Source: Alphaproteobacteria bacterium (lineage in GTDB: Bacteria; Pseudomonadota; Alphaproteobacteria; Rickettsiales; SXRF01). From it: a stretch of 40,950 bases of DNA. Each line of letters begins with the position of its first letter. Position 1 is the stretch's first letter. The position numbers and the translations under genes are program-made. Of this stretch, positions 9,437 to 28,905 are shown piece after piece. Where the stretch lies: contig JABDCD010000007.1 in assembly GCA_013288305.1 (NCBI GenBank), forward strand, positions 1 to 40,950. The letters are read 5' to 3'. The notes beneath the pieces are model-generated. The model was not told where the DNA came from. It did not search any database and saw only the letters and a program-made list of their open reading frames with translations.

Positions 9437-10432
9437 ATGCAATCTACCATAAGACACGATTGGCGCAAAAGCGAAGTATTGCATTTCTTCGATTTGCCGT
9501 TCAACGATTTGCTGTTTATCGCGCATGGCATCCACCGCCAGCATTTCGATCCCAACGCGGTGCAGATTTCGACGCTGCTGTCGATCAAAACCGGCGGCTG
9601 CGCCGAGGACTGCGCCTATTGCCCGCAGAGCGCCAGTTTCGACACCGGCGTCAAAGCGCAAAAACTGATGAGCAAGGACGACGTGCTGGCCGAAGCGCGC
9701 AAAGCCAAAGCGGCCGGGGCATCGCGCTTCTGCATGGGCGCGGCCTGGCGCTCGCCCAAGGATAAGGACATCGAGAATGTCGCCGAAATGATCGAGGGCG
9801 TCAAAGCGCTGGGGCTGGAAACCTGCGCCACGCTGGGAATGCTCTCGCGCGAACAGGCCGGGCGGCTCAAGGACTCAGGCCTCGATTATTATAACCACAA
9901 TCTCGATACCTCACAGGAATATTACGGCAATATCATCACCACCCGCACCTATCAGGACCGGCTCGATACGCTGTCGCACGTGCGCGAGGCGGGGATGCAC
10001 GTCTGTTGCGGCGGCATCGTCGGCATGGGCGAAAGTCCCGAAGACCGCGCCGAATTGCTGCGCACGCTGGCCAACCTGCCTGAGCATCCCGAAAGCGTGC
10101 CGATCAATTTACTGGTGCAGGTCGAGGGCACGAAGCTGCATGGAATGAAGCCGCTCGACGCATTTGACTTTATCCGCGCTATTGCGGTGGCGCGCATCCT
10201 GATGCCCAAATCCTACGTGCGGCTCTCCGCCGGACGCGAGGAGATGAACGAGCAAACGCAGGCGCTGTGCTTCTTCGCCGGCGCCAACTCGATTTTCTAC
10301 GGCGAAAAACTGCTGACCACACCCAATCCCGAGGCGGATAAGGATAAGGCGATGTTCGGAAGGCTGGGGATCACACCGCTGGAATTGGACACTCATCATG
10401 GTCATGAGTCGTTGGTCATGGGTCATGGGTAA
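9437..10432 (+). CDS. bioB: Biotin synthase
   Basis: [16 protein letters not shown] radical-SAM CxxxCxxC motif, [26 protein letters not shown] open from 9413. Confidence 0.96.
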
Positions 10433-10467
10433 AGCAAAAACGACCCATGACTCATGACCCATGACCC
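10391..10467. repeat. Heptamer-iteron inverted repeat, element H1 (GTCATGG-type)
   Basis: GGTCATGAGTCGTTGGTCATGGGTCATGGGT / ACCCATGACTCATGACCCATGACCC. Confidence 0.85.
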
Positions 10468-14700: not shown

Positions 14701-14787
14701 GTTCAGTTATCAGTTGTCAGTTAGCAGTTATCAGTCTACATAACGCTTTTACTACTGTTAACTGTCAACTGACAACTGATAACTGAC
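14701..14787. repeat. Heptamer-iteron inverted repeat, element H3 (CAGTTATCAGTTGT-type)
   Basis: GTTCAGTTATCAGTTGTCAGTTAGCAGTTATCAGTC / ACTGTTAACTGTCAACTGACAACTGATAACTGAC. Confidence 0.9.
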
Positions 14788-15001: not shown

Positions 15002-15115
15002 AAGATACTTTATTCTAACCCTTGATCTTGTTTGCATAGGCGTATTCTGTTCTTTAGCGGACTGATAGTCAGAATAATTAACTAATCCTTAACTCATATA
15101 TCCTAATATTAATAG

Positions 15116-18009
15116 ATGCAAAAAATGCATTCAGAAAAAATAGCAAGCAAGCAAGCAAGCAAGCAAGCAAGAACTATGCCTGCCTAGGATTTCCGGCACT
15201 TTCGGCAGGATTCACCCTGCTGGAACTCTCCATCGTACTGGCGATCATCGCCGTCATCACGGCCGGCACCATGTCGATGGGCACATCGATGGTGGAGTCA
15301 GCGAAGAGGGTTTCCACCAACAGCAAGCTCGACGCCATTGAAACCGCCCTGATGGCCTACCGGGTGGGCAGTAACCGCCTGCCCTGTCCCACCGACCCGG
15401 CCCTGACCGACATCGCTGCAAACTCCGCTACCTATGGCTATGAGACAGGCGTGGCCGGGACATGCACCGGCGGCAGCAACGTCAGCGTCGCCGCACCCAA
15501 GCCCTATACCGGCACCCTCGTCGAAGGCGCAGTGCCGGTCAGAACGCTCAACCTCCCCGACGAATACATGTTCGACGGCTGGGGCAGGAAATTCGCCTAT
15601 GCCGTATGGACGCCGATGACGGCGGCGCTATCCTTCGTTAATTACCTCATCACAAATAACTGCGGAGCGATCACCATCAACAACGCAGCGGGTGCTCACC
15701 GGACGGTCGTGGCGGATTACGCGCTCGTCAGCTACGGCCCGGATGGGCATGGCGGTTATCTCAAGGGCGGCGCCGTCAGCACACGAATGAATGCCGGAGT
15801 AACCAATGCCGACGAGTTGACTGATTGCCATTGCACCAGCGCCGCCGCCGCCGGAACCTATGCCGCCACCTACGTGCAAAAAGACTTGTCGCTCGATGGC
15901 AGCGACGCAACGCACCCATTCAGCCACATCGTGCGCTACAAGGAGCGCTGGCAGATGCAGAATGCCTATGACGCGTATGCTCCTACCGGCGGCTCCCTCT
16001 GCACGCTGGGCTTCCGCATCGACGGCACGGCGGCAAACGAACAGATAGGCGACAACCAGTCCCACCTCTATACGATGGACATCAGCGGCGACGGCCAGGA
16101 CGACCTGATGATTGCCAGCAAGAATCTAGCCAGGGCCTATGCCATCTTCGGCAAGGTGGGCAACTGGTCGTCTCCGTTTATCCTCTCCACGGTTACCCCC
16201 AACCCCAACGGCACCAACGGCTTCTATGTTACCAGCAGCACCTGGGGCAATTCACGGTTCAGCTTCGTCGGCGCCAAACAAGCCTGTTCCGGTGGCAACT
16301 GCCAGGCCATAGGAAGCGTGGATCTGGACGGCGACGGCAATAAGGATCTGGTTCTGACCCAGCTGGAAAGCGGCTTCGCGGAGAATAACGTCATCATCTT
16401 CGGCGGGCAGACGGCACCGTGGTCAAACCCGTTCGACGCATCAAGAACCGGACCCTCTGCAACCATCGATGGCACCAAGGCATCCATATTCCAGCATCCC
16501 ACGGCGGGGGGATTCCCGGTGGCGGGCGCGACGACTCTGGTAGGCAAGTTCCATAGCACCAGCTATGCGGATCTGGTGGTGACGATGAACAGCGGCGGTT
16601 TTTTCGTCGGCCACGGCAATACCGCCATTGTCTTCGGAAAGACCCGCCCGTGGTCAACGTATTTCGACACCAGCAGCCTCAACGGCAGCACCACCGGCAT
16701 CAAGCTCTACGATGACGTGTCAACCAGCTGGAGCAGTACCACCATCGCCCTGGGCGATGTCAACGGCGACGGCTACAAGGATTTTATTCAGGGCGACACC
16801 AACAACAACAACGGCAAGGACAACGTCGTTATCATCAATGGCGGCGCCGGCCCGCCCTGGAGCAGCGTGCCGAATATCGATAATTCCGTCATTAAATGCA
16901 CGACGCCGGGCGCCAACAGCAATACACTGACCTTTACCCAGGGCTATACCCCTTCCGCCTCCGATGTCGGAAAATACGTGAGCATCACGGCGGGCACCAA
17001 TCTCAATCAGGGCGTATATCATATCACGGCATGGACTTCCGTTCCCAATGGCGACGCCTCCAACACCTGGACGCTGTCCGGATCGTCCAACTTGACCACC
17101 GCCGGCGGCGCCGGTAGTGCCATTACCGGTACGATGGTGTATCAGTTCAGCGCGCTCAACACTGCCAGCAATCCCACAGGCTGGCGGATCGAAAAACCCA
17201 GCCCGGCCACGGTCACTTATTTCGGTGGTAACGTGAACGTGGGCCATCTTCGCAATAGCACGTATGAGGATGTGTATGTTGCATCGCAGATAGGAGTGGA
17301 GAGCGGTCAGAACGAATGCTATGTTTTCTTCGGCGGCGCCACTCCTAGTCCTGCATCGCCGTGGTCTACCCCATGGACCGCAGTTGCCAACCTGACCGGC
17401 GTCGCCGGCGGCTTCGTCTTTGCTCCGGACGCGTCGCATAAGCCTAGCGGCTCAGTCTTCTTTGCTGACGTCACCGGCGACGGAATCGACGATATACTCT
17501 GGAAGCCCAGCAGCTTGTATCTGATGATTTACTTCGGCAAGGCGGGTGGGTTCGGCGCATCGCAAACAATCTCGGCTGCCGCCTTTGACGGCAACGTCGG
17601 CACGATTATCACCGGCCCGGTGAGCAGCAGCTGGACCGTGGCCGTGGGCGACGTCAACGGCGACGGCATCAACGATATCATTATCGGTATTCCCACCGCC
17701 GGCGCGGCGTTCGGCCGCGCCGGCGCGGGCGAAGTGTTCGTCGTCTTCGGCAAATCCTCGGGCTGGCCCGCTAGCATCGACCTGTCCACGCTCACCGGCG
17801 TCAACGGTGTCGCGATCGAAGGTGCCGTTGCCGGCGACGCGGTAGGAAGTTCCGTGACCACCGCCGACCTGAACGGCGACGGCGTCAAGGACATCGTCGC
17901 CTGCGCGCCCACCGCCAGCTATAACGGCGCCAGCTCCGGCAGCTGCTACGTCGTCTGGGGCCACAAAGGCTCTTGGCCAGCCACAATCGACCTGGGCAAT
18001 TTGAACTGA
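15116..18009 (+). CDS. Type IV pilin-like / pseudopilin N-terminus fused to FG-GAP (VCBS/integrin-alpha-like) repeats; 5' end out of frame in this copy
   Basis: Frame of ORF 15271..18009 extends upstream to GFTLLELSIVLAIIAVITAGT; repeated DxxGDGxxD motifs (DISGDGQDD, DLDGDGNKD, DVNGDGYKD, DVTGDGIDD, DVNGDGIND, DLNGDGVKD). Only upstream ATGs (15116, 15125) are in another frame across the (AGCA)n tract. Confidence 0.75.
15142..15171 (+). repeat. Tetranucleotide microsatellite (AGCA)7.5
   Basis: AGCAAGCAAGCAAGCAAGCAAGCAAGCAAG read directly. Confidence 0.95.
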
Positions 18010-18138: not shown

Positions 18139-20418
18139 ATGGCCGCAACACATCGCACCACCAAGCCACAATGGCGCCACGCCGCTCTGGCAACGCTCTT
18201 GTTGGCGCTAGGCAGCCTCCTGCCCGCCGGGCAGCAGGCTTATGCACAAATCGTCGCCACGCCTTATGATAAGATTCCTAATTTCTGCACCGTTCCGACC
18301 GACACCACCGTAAAATCGGGCAACTGGTCAGATCCTACGATATGGTCTACCGGGAAAGTCCCGGGAGCAGGCGACATCGTATCCATCGGCCATGCCGTAA
18401 CCTATGACGTGGCCAGTACCTCCCCCACCGCCGTTGACAGCGTGTGCGTCACCGGCGCGTTGAACTTCCGCCCTGACATCACTACCACCCTCTATGTTAC
18501 CAACCTGCTGGTGATGCCCGCCGGCACATTGCAAGTAGGTACCGCGGCTAACCCCATCGCTGCCAATGTCACCGCCACCATCGTCATCGCCGACACACCC
18601 ATGGACACCGTTAAAGACCCGGCACAATACGGTCACGGTCTGATTGCATTGGGTACCATAACGATGTCCGGCCAACCACTTGCCAATACGTGGATTAAGC
18701 TCGCAGCCAATGCGCACATAGGCGACATCACCTTAACGCTGGCTCAACCCGCCAGCGGCTGGAAGGCTGGCGACACCGTGTACCTGCCTGACAGTTCGAA
18801 TCCGGACGTCAACGGCCAAGTCAATGGCAAACCCTGGACTCCGATGCAGGAAAAAGTGAAGCTGGCCAGTATCTCCGCCGACGGCTTGACGCTGACCTTG
18901 GCCAGCGCGCTGAAGTTTGATCATACAGGCCTTCAAAACCACACCGGCAAGTGGTTTCTGCCGGATGTGGCCAATATGACGCGTAACGTCGCGGTTAAAT
19001 CGTCAAGCGCCACGCAACCCGCCCGTGGCTATGCCATGTTCACCGGCCGGGCCAACGTGAACATCCAGTATGTGAACTTCGGCGGCCTGGGACGGCAGAC
19101 CAATGCCGTGCCCGACGACACGACCTACGACACCAAGGGCAATGTTACGCACGTGGGTACCGACCAGGAAAACCGCAACGCCGTCACTTTGCTGCATCTC
19201 ATCGGGCCGACCACGCCGCAAGCCAACGGCTATCAGTACACTTTCGCCGGCAACGTCGTCACATGCCCGCTCAACCCCATGCCCTTCCGCTGGGGCATCA
19301 ACATGTACGATAGCCATTACGGGCTGATCAAGGACAATGTCGTCGTCAACTGGCAAGGAGCCGGCATCATCGGCGTGACCGGGTCTGAGACCGGCAACGT
19401 CATCGCCCACAACTTCGTCGCCCAAATCTCGGGTGGTCCTGGCCGGGCGGACTTCCGCGTCGCCAACCGGGATTACGGCTTCGAGGGCGGGCCATTCTGG
19501 TTCGGCGGCTTCAACAACTCTGTCAATGACAACGTGGCTACCGACGCTGCCTACGCGGGCTACACCTACTACGGCAGGGGCACGGTCAAGGCGCCGCCTT
19601 TCCAAGGTGCTGACTACTCGCAATACGTAACCGTTCAATCGGGGAGCATCCCGATCCGGCAATTTTCGAATAACGAGGCATACGGCGTCATGGGTTACGC
19701 GTTAACGATCTGGGGGCTCGGCGCCGGCTTCACTTCGGTAGACCCCACTATGGGGCCGAGCATGGTCGATGGCTTCACCGCCTGGGGGCCCAGCGCCTAC
19801 TACGGCTACGAAACGACCAATCTGACGTTTGACCATTTCACCGCCCTGGCCGATGGCACCCTGCAAGGCAACCAGAATAATAGCAATGCCGGGTTGTTTT
19901 TCAGCGATTACCTCACCAACAACTTCACGGTGAACCACGCGGATATCGAAGGGTTCGGGACAGGGTATTATGGCTCCACGTACGCCAGCGGGACCATCAC
20001 CCTGGAGAACTCGTTCTTCCAGAACGTCTATAATATCGTTGTCCAGACGCCCAGTGCTTCGGGATCGAACACGAACAGCGCGAGCATGCCGCCCCGGACT
20101 CTTCTGGCCGTCAACGACACCTTCGCCTCGCTGCCGCATGCGGGTGGCCGCCCGCAGCTCAATATCGTGATGGGGTATCGGGATGGGAGTGGTAACGGTG
20201 GGTTTGGAAACTACATCGTGCCGGACACGGTCTTCGTTACCGACTATAACGGCGTGGCCGGGGACAACTTCCAGGTATTCTACAACGAGCAGGCCCCCGG
20301 TTTCCTCGTTCCGCAAACCAACAGCACGAGAACGATTGGCTCCCCCGAAGCCGGCCTCACCAACGCGCAGAACTGGGCGAAATACGGCATCGCCATCGCC
20401 GGAGCGGTAGCGCCATGA
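18139..20418 (+). CDS. Secreted G8-domain protein with predicted right-handed beta-helix region
   Basis: 759 aa; signal peptide ALATLLLALGSLLPAGQQAYAQ; G8-like SGNWSDPTIWSTGKVPGAGDIVSIGHAVTYD; later NNSVNDNVATDAAYAGYTYYG repeats; AGGAGG ribosome binding site just upstream. Confidence 0.7.
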   Translation: MAATHRTTKPQWRHAALATLLLALGSLLPAGQQAYAQIVATPYDKIPNFCTVPTDTTVKSGNWSDPTIWSTGKVPGAGDIVSIGHAVTYDVASTSPTAVDSVCVTGALNFRPDITTTLYVTNLLVMPAGTLQVGTAANPIAANVTATIVIADTPMDTVKDPAQYGHGLIALGTITMSGQPLANTWIKLAANAHIGDITLTLAQPASGWKAGDTVYLPDSSNPDVNGQVNGKPWTPMQEKVKLASISADGLTLTLASALKFDHTGLQNHTGKWFLPDVANMTRNVAVKSSSATQPARGYAMFTGRANVNIQYVNFGGLGRQTNAVPDDTTYDTKGNVTHVGTDQENRNAVTLLHLIGPTTPQANGYQYTFAGNVVTCPLNPMPFRWGINMYDSHYGLIKDNVVVNWQGAGIIGVTGSETGNVIAHNFVAQISGGPGRADFRVANRDYGFEGGPFWFGGFNNSVNDNVATDAAYAGYTYYGRGTVKAPPFQGADYSQYVTVQSGSIPIRQFSNNEAYGVMGYALTIWGLGAGFTSVDPTMGPSMVDGFTAWGPSAYYGYETTNLTFDHFTALADGTLQGNQNNSNAGLFFSDYLTNNFTVNHADIEGFGTGYYGSTYASGTITLENSFFQNVYNIVVQTPSASGSNTNSASMPPRTLLAVNDTFASLPHAGGRPQLNIVMGYRDGSGNGGFGNYIVPDTVFVTDYNGVAGDNFQVFYNEQAPGFLVPQTNSTRTIGSPEAGLTNAQNWAKYGIAIAGAVAP

Positions 20419-20516: not shown

Positions 20517-21707
20517 TTATACCGCTTTGGGAGCTAGATGTCGCAGGTTCGAATCCTGTCGCCCCTTCCACGCCTCGGTAAAACTGACAATTTCTTCCTC
20601 CGTCGTCGCCCAGCCACCACTGATGCGGATGGCGCAGGAAGCCAGGGTTTTCGGCACGCCCATCGCGGCCAGCACATGCGATGCCTCGATCCGTCCCGAT
20701 GAGCAGGCCGAACCGGCGCTGACGGCGAATCCCTTGAGGTCGAAATCCATCAACTGCACTTCGTTGCCGACACCCGGCATGGCAACGCAGCTGGTGTTGG
20801 GCAGGCGGGGGGCGGATGCGCCAAAAACAAATGGCAAAGGACAAATGTCAAAATTATCTTTTGTCCTTTGACCTTTGACATTTGACATTTCCTGCTCCGC
20901 TTTATCCAACCACCCCCGCAATCGCCGCATCTGGCTAAAATCGATCTTCTCCACCGCAATAGCGAACCCGGCAATGGCGGCGACGTTTTCCGTGCCGGCG
21001 CGGCGTCCCAACTCCTGCCCGCCGCCGGACAGCAGCGGCGTGAGTGGCAAGTCGCGGCGCACCACCAGCGCGCTAGCTCCCACCGGCCCGCCGCATTTAT
21101 GGCCGCTGATGGTCATCATATCGCAACCCAGCGCACCGAAATCGACCGGGATTTTTCCCAAGCCCTGCACCGCATCGCAATGCAGCAACGCCCCATGTTT
21201 TTTGCACAGGGCGGCAACGTCGCGGATAGGTTGGATCACCCCCGTCTCATTATTGGCCAGCATAACGGAAACCAGCGCCGGCGCGTCACCTTTCAGCATC
21301 GCATCGAGGGCGGAAAGGTCGATGAGGCCGGAGGAGGTGACGGGAACGGTAGACAGTGGACGGTAGATGGTGGACGGTGAAATGCTGTCAACTGTCAACC
21401 GTCCACTGTCCAACGTCTGCCGCAATACCGAGCTATGCTCCACCACGCTCACCATCAGCCGTCTTCCGGCGATGCCGCGCAAAGCCATCGCATTGGCCTC
21501 GGTGCCTGATGCGGTGAAAATGATTTCATTCGGCCAGGCGCTGATGGCGTCGGCGATGGTCTTGCGCGCATTTTCAAGATATTTCTTCGCCTCGCAGCCG
21601 AAGCGATGCACCGACGACGGGTTGAGCGGCATTGCCAATAATTCCTGCATCCGGGCGATGGCTTCCGGGCGGACGGGGGCGGTGGCGTTGTAGTCGAGGT
21701 AGATCAT
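20517..21707 (-). CDS. Cysteine desulfurase (NifS/IscS family)
   Basis: [35 protein letters not shown]-lysine site, GSACSSG; C-terminal tail GRQDSNLRHLAPKAV is antisense tRNA. Confidence 0.92.
   Translation of the reverse strand: MIYLDYNATAPVRPEAIARMQELLAMPLNPSSVHRFGCEAKKYLENARKTIADAISAWPNEIIFTASGTEANAMALRGIAGRRLMVSVVEHSSVLRQTLDSGRLTVDSISPSTIYRPLSTVPVTSSGLIDLSALDAMLKGDAPALVSVMLANNETGVIQPIRDVAALCKKHGALLHCDAVQGLGKIPVDFGALGCDMMTISGHKCGGPVGASALVVRRDLPLTPLLSGGGQELGRRAGTENVAAIAGFAIAVEKIDFSQMRRLRGWLDKAEQEMSNVKGQRTKDNFDICPLPFVFGASAPRLPNTSCVAMPGVGNEVQLMDFDLKGFAVSAGSACSSGRIEASHVLAAMGVPKTLASCAIRISGGWATTEEEIVSFTEAWKGRQDSNLRHLAPKAV
20522..20570 (+). pseudogene. tRNA-Pro 3' remnant (anticodon loop to CCA)
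   Basis: CCGCTTTGGGAGCTAGATGTCGCAGGTTCGAATCCTGTCGCCCCTTCCA is the same length as, and similar to, the 3' 49 nt of tRNA-Pro(TGG) at 14818-14866; no matching 5' half found upstream. Confidence 0.7.
20826..20891. repeat. Heptamer-iteron inverted repeat, element H4 (GGACAAAT/TTTGACAT-type) inside the cysteine desulfurase gene
   Basis: ACAAATGGCAAAGGACAAATGTCAAAA / CTTTTGTCCTTTGACCTTTGACATTTGACATTT. Confidence 0.85.
21346..21417. repeat. Heptamer-iteron inverted repeat, element H5 (GTGGACGGT-type) inside the cysteine desulfurase gene
   Basis: ACGGTAGACAGTGGACGGTAGATGGTGGACGGTG / TGTCAACTGTCAACCGTCCACTGTCCAACGT. Confidence 0.85.
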
Positions 21708-22198
21708 CGGGGATTAGGCATTAGGGATTGGGGATTAGTAAAAAGATTTTCCTTAGTCCCTAATCCCGAATCCCTAATCCCTCCCTTACGAACATCCGCC
21801 AGTGAAATCGAATGCAGGTAATTATAAATCTGCGCGCCGAGGCCTTCCCATAAATCGTGGGTCAGGCAGCGTGCCTTGGTCGCCATGCAGCCGGTGTCGC
21901 TATGACCGGCGCAGCGCGTCATCTTCAGCGATTCGTCGACGGCCTGCACAATGTCGGAAATCCATACTTCCTCCGCCGGGCGCGCCAGCGCATAGCCGCC
22001 GCCCGGGCCGCGCACCGATGTCACCAGTCCGCCCTGCCGCAGCTTGCTGAAAATCTGTTCGAGATAAGGCACGGTGATTTCCTGCGCCTCGGCCAACTCT
22101 TCCAGCTTGACCGGCACACCCGCCTCGCGCCCGGCCAGTTCGACCATGGCCATGACGGCATAACGGGCTTTGGTACCGAGGATCATTTGTTCTCCCAC
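21704..22198 (-). CDS. iscR: Rrf2/IscR-family transcriptional regulator
   Basis: [54 protein letters not shown]; Cys residues [22 protein letters not shown]. Confidence 0.88.
21709..21786. repeat. Heptamer-iteron inverted repeat, element H6 (GGGATTA-type)
   Basis: GGGGATTAGGCATTAGGGATTGGGGATTAG / CCTTAGTCCCTAATCCCGAATCCCTAATCCC. Confidence 0.9.
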
Positions 22199-27352: not shown

Positions 27353-27447
27353 CGTCATTGGTCATGAGTCATTAGTCATGGGTTGTGATTGCGCTGACAG
27401 TCATGATATAGATATTACCCATGACCCATGACCATCAACCCATAACC
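27353..27447. repeat. Heptamer-iteron inverted repeat, element H7 (GTCATGG-type)
   Basis: CGTCATTGGTCATGAGTCATTAGTCATGGGTTG / ATTACCCATGACCCATGACCATCAACCCATAACC. Confidence 0.85.
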
Positions 27448-28224
27448 ATTCTTCTCGTAGGCGCAGGTAAAATGGGCGGCGCACTGCTGACACGTTGGAA
27501 GACCCAATTCCCCGATTATCGCTTTGATGTCATCGAACCGAATGCGGAGGGAAAATGGCACAAAAATCTCGCCGCGCTGCCGCAGGATTATCATCCCGAT
27601 ATTATCGTCTTCGCCGTCAAGCCGCAGGAGCTTGAAAAAATCTTGCCTGAATATCGCACCCGCTTCGCCGCCAAGCCATTATATATGTCCATCGCCGCCG
27701 GAAAGGACACGGCGTTTTTCAAAAAAGCGCTGGGCGAACATGCCCATGTCGTCCGCGCCATGCCCAACACCCCGGCGCTGGTCGGCGAGTCGATGAGCGT
27801 TCTCTATGCGGCGGATACGCTGCCCGCCTCCGCCCGTAACCTCGCCACGCAATTGATGCAGGCCGTGGGCAAGGTCGAGTGGCTCACCGATGAATCGCTG
27901 ATGGATGCCGTCACCGCGCTTTCCGGCTCCGGCCCGGCTTATGTATTTTTATTTTTGGATGCGCTAACCAAGGCGGGCGTCGCCGCCGGATTGCCGGAAG
28001 CCATGGCGAAAACGCTCGCCATGCAGACCGTTCATGGCAGCCTGGCGCTGGCCGGACAGAGCGCCGAGGGTTTCGAGCAGCTGCGCAAAAACGTCACCAG
28101 CCCCGGCGGCACCACCGAGGCGGCGCTAAAAATATTGATGAAAGACGGTGCGCTGGAAACGCTGGTGAAAGAGGCGGTATCGGCAGCAGTCCGGCGATCA
28201 ATGGAGATGTCAAATGGCAAATGA
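27421..28224 (+). CDS. proC: Pyrroline-5-carboxylate reductase
   Basis: ILLVGAGKMGGALL, VRAMPNTPALVGESMS, ALSGSGPAYVFLFLDALTKAGVAAGL, SPGGTTEAAL. Confidence 0.94.
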   Translation: MTHDHQPITILLVGAGKMGGALLTRWKTQFPDYRFDVIEPNAEGKWHKNLAALPQDYHPDIIVFAVKPQELEKILPEYRTRFAAKPLYMSIAAGKDTAFFKKALGEHAHVVRAMPNTPALVGESMSVLYAADTLPASARNLATQLMQAVGKVEWLTDESLMDAVTALSGSGPAYVFLFLDALTKAGVAAGLPEAMAKTLAMQTVHGSLALAGQSAEGFEQLRKNVTSPGGTTEAALKILMKDGALETLVKEAVSAAVRRSMEMSNGK

Positions 28225-28267
28225 CAAAGGGCAAATAAATTGACATTTGCACTTTGACATTTGATAA
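28207..28267. repeat. Heptamer-iteron inverted repeat, element H8 (GGCAAAT/ACATTTG-type)
   Basis: ATGTCAAATGGCAAATGACAAAGGGCAAATAA / ATTGACATTTGCACTTTGACATTTGATAAC. Confidence 0.85.
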
Positions 28268-28810: not shown

Positions 28811-28905
28811 AGAAGTCGAGAAGACTGGAAGTCGGGAAGTCGAGAAATCGGCTTCCCGATTTTTTGTTTCTCGACTTCTCGCATTCTCGACTTCTCGTCT
28901 TCTAC
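28811..28905. repeat. Heptamer-iteron inverted repeat, element H9 (AGAAGTCG-type) with inner terminator-like hairpin
   Basis: AGAAGTCGAGAAGACTGGAAGTCGGGAAGTCGAGAAAT / TTCTCGACTTCTCGCATTCTCGACTTCTCGTCTTCTAC, with AATCGGcttcCCGATTTTTT in the middle. Confidence 0.85.

Follow-up and report, generated by a model that had tools for sequence, protein, structure and literature searches.

Repeat-mediated phase variation is known best from host-adapted members of the Beta-, Gamma- and Epsilonproteobacteria; in the Opa genes of Neisseria, the repeat tract is located in the signal-peptide region. The Opa family carries CTTCT pentanucleotide tracts (PMC5953494) and is the closest functional parallel to the locus described here: in both cases, multi-copy surface proteins have their own short repeat near each N-terminus, such that the loci could switch independently, although the Opa proteins are barrels of the outer membrane whose genes all share a single repeat unit, whereas the present proteins are predicted type IV prepilins with several different units. 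In the contingency loci of Haemophilus influenzae, a tetranucleotide tract, with GCAA among the units, immediately follows the start codon (PMC2651432). The tract analyzed here is likewise positioned just 3′ of a start codon, and GCAA, a cyclic permutation of AGCA, encodes a hydrophilic, positively charged peptide; however, the Haemophilus loci, which belong to an unrelated bacterial class, mostly encode LPS enzymes, iron-uptake proteins and autotransporters rather than pilins. Type IV pilus function is under slippage control in Neisseria pilC, a pilus gene with a homopolymeric tract in frame (PMC5953494), but pilC encodes a pilus-associated protein and has a single-base tract, whereas the gene in question here encodes a putative prepilin. 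Finally, the protein shares with type IV prepilins and pseudopilins (TIGR02532) the GFxxxE cleavage motif, the hydrophobic helix and the presence of a prepilin peptidase in the genome, but differs from them in being fused to about 660 residues of FG-GAP region and in the long leader that it would have when in frame.

The locus is on contig C7 of a draft Rickettsiales genome (G000; 55% complete, 52 contigs), in a stretch of 40,950 nt that was analyzed in its entirety (hereafter, the window), and has a paralog on contig C21 of the same genome. In window coordinates, its features are the following:

15116–15187, + strand: short open reading frame read at present from ATG 15116 or 15125, MQKMHSEKIASKQASKQARTMPA*, with stop codon TAG 15185; its ATGCAAAAAATGCAT segment is identical in the C21 paralog.
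15142–15171, + strand: (AGCA)7.5 tract found by repeat scan, the presumed slippage switch, encoding SKQA in all frames.
15174–15177, + strand: 4-nt difference from the C21 paralog directly 3′ of the tract, alignable as an extra TGCC (paralog alignment).
15172–15207, + strand: remaining leader, open in the pilin frame (NYACLGFPALSA) and homologous to ACLGFSRLSA of the C21 paralog.
15208–15276, + strand: prepilin cleavage/methylation motif and hydrophobic helix GFTLLELSIVLAIIAVITAGTMS; TIGR02532 over the cut-off, Pfam N_methyl slightly under.
15208–16026, + strand: pilin domain conserved among paralogs (75% identity to C21; dN 0.19, dS 1.05).
16027–18009, + strand: FG-GAP (integrin-alpha-like) repeat region, strongly diverged between the C7 and C21 paralogs (Pfam FG-GAP 9.6e-23, FG-GAP_3 5.6e-16; dN 0.77, dS 1.43).
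18139–20418, + strand: next downstream gene, encoding a G8 domain and CEMIP-type beta-helix protein with an N-terminal hydrophobic stretch.

The AGCA tract is perfect over its 30 nt (100% match). Its 16-nt core, with up to 2 mismatches allowed, is expected 0.05 times in the window but was observed as 5 overlapping matches, a number reached in 0 of 100 shuffles; the tract is no chance feature. As the unit length is not divisible by three, the encoded peptide, SKQA, is identical whichever frame is read. The pilin frame is free of stops from TAA 15079 to 18009, contains no ATG, GTG or TTG between this TAA and GFTLLELSIVLAII at 15208, where the GFTLLE prepilin motif is located, and has its earliest ATG at 15271, within the hydrophobic segment. 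ATG 15116 and ATG 15125 belong to a different frame, which terminates at TAG 15185. Computed frames put either ATG in frame with the prepilin upon gain of one AGCA unit or loss of two; that is, an in-frame canonical start, absent at 7.5 units, arises at +1 or −2 units. The initial annotation, made without database searches, had described the tract, the pilin frame lacking a start before the hydrophobic segment, the two off-frame ATGs and the changes in unit number that would join them to the pilin, and each of these points was borne out, without a single mismatch in the tract, by translation and frame computation. Two features expected of a contingency locus are present, namely, a perfect tandem repeat with a unit not divisible by 3 that separates the start codon from the gene body, and a (computed) shift of the gene body into or out of frame with that start codon when the number of units changes.

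The annotation of the product as a pilin-like FG-GAP protein was upheld by profile searches, with TIGR02532 matching at 23.6 bits (cut-off 16.3), as expected of a prepilin with a GFxxxE motif followed by a hydrophobic helix, and the FG-GAP repeats (PF01839) at 80.1 bits (cut-off 22.1); Pfam N_methyl, at 19.5 bits, is just below its cut-off of 21.2. Matches to integrin alpha-V were obtained from the PDB, but only weak ones. The pilin part has homologs in 31 of 37 relatives and is common in the family and the order, and a prepilin peptidase gene is present in the genome (PF01478 over the cut-off at G000:C18). Together, these matches confirm the predicted product as a prepilin with FG-GAP repeats. 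An AlphaFold2 model of the mature C7 protein alone had a mean pLDDT of 31 and was discarded.

We consider it highly likely that this is a translational contingency locus and that the AGCA tract acts as its slippage switch, with slippage in a population, translation, surface display and a role in adhesion all being inferred. Under this scenario, translation would initiate at ATG 15116 (or 15125) and pass through the tract, reaching the prepilin only when the unit number, altered by slipped-strand mispairing, is right modulo 3. With the present 7.5 units, the product would be a short basic peptide of 23 residues (OFF). Gain of one unit or loss of two would instead yield a prepilin whose long leader, of roughly 30–45 residues, would be cut off by the prepilin peptidase before FTLLE, so that a pilin carrying an integrin-like FG-GAP head would be displayed at the surface (ON). 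The SKQA repeat peptide, being hydrophilic and basic, would be suited to a prepilin leader, and given that the leader would be removed before assembly, its length and content would be nearly free. A promoter and terminator scan at the start codon yielded nothing above chance, with no sigma-70-like promoter before ATG 15116, and no clear Shine-Dalgarno (SD) sequence was found before this ATG. In the 15104–15116 segment of the window, a TAATAT hexamer ends 6 nt 5′ of ATG 15116, and the C21 paralog has TGCTGTAATAAT there; this arrangement would fit a leaderless transcript, with no full sigma-70 match in the promoter scan.

The whole draft genome contains AGCA tracts in only two places, C7 and C21. 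The C21 leader shares both ATGCAAAAAATGCAT and the (AGCA)7.5 tract with C7, lacks a canonical start in the pilin frame and is also out of frame; computed repair, however, requires loss of one unit or gain of two, as opposed to the gain of one or loss of two in C7, the frame offset differing because of the 4-nt difference directly 3′ of the tract. Between the tract and the prepilin, the C21 leader additionally carries a palindromic insert of 39 nt, a multiple of three, by which the frame is kept. From the ratio of the substitution rates (dN/dS about 0.18), the pilin domain is under purifying selection, which argues that C7 and C21 are not dead genes; the FG-GAP parts align poorly. A third property of contingency loci, a gene body that is intact and under selection, is thus met by the open frame and the dN/dS. 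By itself, the equal length (7.5) of both tracts suggests recent duplication rather than fast change and is evidence against the switch.

Tracts of at least 4 AGCA units were found in 2 of the 344 genomes of the order, namely, G000 and G015, a member of the same family but of another genus, in which about 44 matches to the prepilin query were recovered, a few of them to an element inserted in the query rather than to the pilin. Three of the four AGCA tracts of G015 directly follow ATGGCAA in prepilin leaders (on C91, C48 and C29), mostly with an SD-like GGAG before ATGGCA; the fourth runs off a contig end. Read from the same start, the 4-unit copies C91 and C48 are in frame and their 5-unit homolog C29 is out of frame. 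All three keep the homologous leader VVKRKVK in the pilin frame, and C48 has a further frameshift later, inside the pilin. In sister prepilins, the leader position of AGCA is occupied by an AAAGC, AG, GCGAGGAA or CCCAACTT tract. Among the AAAGC-bearing prepilins of G015, C110 is in frame, and C93 and C1 are out of frame, as are the G015 prepilins with a GCGAGGAA tract on C52 (10.25 copies) and a CCCAACTT tract on C110 (6.4 copies); in G007, a genome assembled in 7 contigs, (AG)13.5 lies between ATGCT and the prepilin, again out of frame. At some G015 loci, a further ATG or GTG in frame is located next to the tract or 3′ of it (in C29, METIEWQSK..., plus one in the inserted palindrome), which makes their OFF state less than absolute; in some of these loci, expression at other lengths could begin at a second, differently framed ATG (METIxWQSK) or at the palindrome ATG. 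The FG-GAP homolog in G001, of the same genus as G000, is in frame and has a leader with only (CG)7 in place of an AGCA tract, which, together with the additional G015 starts and the lack of a sigma-70-like promoter or clear SD at ATG 15116, counts against the switch. Separately, several G015 contig ends (at loci L098, L119, L090, L091, L108, L139 and L229) fall in or near tracts of AG, AGCA, AAAGC or heptamers that adjoin prepilins or start codons, indicating that assembly breaks at these loci.

The repeat scan covered 350 kb of G015 and 441 kb of G000; in these stretches, every perfect tetranucleotide tract of at least 14 nt (6 in total) and two of the three pentamer tracts are followed by a prepilin motif within 330 nt. 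For all scanned repeat classes, placement upstream of prepilins was tested against the fraction of bases that lie there (binomial p 2.7e-8 in G015 and 1.1e-3 in G000), with the G015 stretches picked from prepilin-bearing contigs and those of G000 including C21. The comparison of start codons covered 116 prepilin N-termini from 26 genomes, 18 of them with an upstream repeat (in one case, a distant A10 run); a canonical start was lacking in 5 of these 18 but in none of the other 98 (Fisher p 5e-5). Between tract and pilin, the pilin frame of 15 loci, which include paralogs and are not fully independent, has 0 stops in 372 codons, whereas the other two frames have 22 and 24 and shuffled sequences a mean of 21, implying that the leaders are maintained as coding sequence in this frame. 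Where a locus lacks an internal start, a coding leader would make sense only if translation comes through the tract.

The same observations bear on the possibility that the start was lost through a frameshift in the leader and that the gene is a decaying pseudogene. The pilin frame indeed has no canonical start, both copies in G000 are out of frame and the FG-GAP half is strongly diverged; nevertheless, 934 codons remain stop-free, the pilin-domain dN/dS is low, frame loss is confined to repeat-bearing prepilins, and homologs with the same tract are in frame, so that we regard decay as improbable. Slightly less credible still is an always-on gene, translated from a non-canonical start in the pilin frame or through a programmed frameshift at a conserved A6 run or at the tract. 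The A6 run CAAAAAATG is common to both paralogs and the pilin frame extends without a stop back to 15079, as such a mechanism would have it, but C7 and C21 require shifts of opposite sign, which a single programmed shift cannot serve; furthermore, the remaining homologs have normal starts, and the same position is occupied by several different repeat units. An incorrect tract length in the draft, with the true gene in frame, appears the least plausible, for even though G000 is fragmentary and several G015 contigs terminate inside such tracts, 30 nt between distinct flanks are easily covered by ordinary reads, tracts that are out of frame are also present in a second draft and in G007 (7 contigs), and the architecture of the switch stands even if the length is wrong.

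Palindromic elements through which the pilin frame is read were observed between the leader start and the cleavage motif in L009 (C21) and in L090, L091, L110, L121 and L122 of G015. Cleavage of the leader before assembly, leaving its sequence nearly unconstrained, would also account for these inserts. The palindromes resemble the Rickettsia palindromic element RPE1 (TIGR01045) in being palindromic DNA maintained in frame within coding sequence, in this case, prepilin leaders. Their identification as RPE1 was rejected, however, given that TIGR01045 had 0 matches in G000, G007 and G015, compared with 22–62 in four genomes of one order-mate genus; the order-mates g18 and g91 are full of RPE1, and it is on these that the report's inference of Rickettsiales as the order rests. 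In another prepilin, L125 (G000:C5:46312-47268), the nearest in-frame starts are 38–45 codons upstream and a palindromic sequence is positioned directly 5′ of GFTLLE.

The window also contains heptamer hairpins, mostly intergenic, at 10396–10467, 14703–14787, 20827–20890, 21346–21417, 21710–21782, 27354–27447, 28207–28264 and 28812–28903. These consist of 7-bp (once 8-bp) tandem units, with arms that are mutually inverse complements and a unit that differs per site, and have single-strand folding z-scores of −2.6 to −9. Comparable arrays are frequent in G000 and G015. The arrays in the window were considered as further slippage switches and set aside, being hairpin-forming and mostly located at gene ends.

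The layout of a contingency locus with the present copy out of frame, as proposed in the initial annotation, is supported by the out-of-frame paralog with its tract, the 4-unit in-frame and 5-unit out-of-frame homologs, the other units in sister genes, the open leader and purifying selection. Its extension beyond the C7 gene to a set of prepilins is also supported, on comparative grounds and without population data. With somewhat less assurance than for the C7 switch, we favor a genome-wide prepilin repertoire in this family of Rickettsiales-related bacteria, in which many members have their own leader tract (AGCA, AAAGC, AG or octamers), single cells would achieve an Opa-like combinatorial display, and leaders also take up palindromic elements without loss of frame. 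Because prepilin paralogs in G000 and in relatives carry independent tracts, with differing units, at the same leader position, each cell could produce a subset of its own. Probably, individual pilins are flipped on and off via repeat slippage in these uncultured bacteria, although neither length change in a population nor switching has been shown.

A literature search found no paper on slippage-controlled prepilins in Rickettsiales, and no mention of phase variation was found in two surveys of the order. Type IV pili in Rickettsiales have been discussed as attachment devices (PMC10847448). Phase variation concentrated on prepilin leaders in a Rickettsia-related lineage would, according to the literature searched, be the first in the order and would offer a testable route to surface heterogeneity, whether in attachment, escape from phages or grazers, or contact with a host, among bacteria whose relatives are obligately intracellular.
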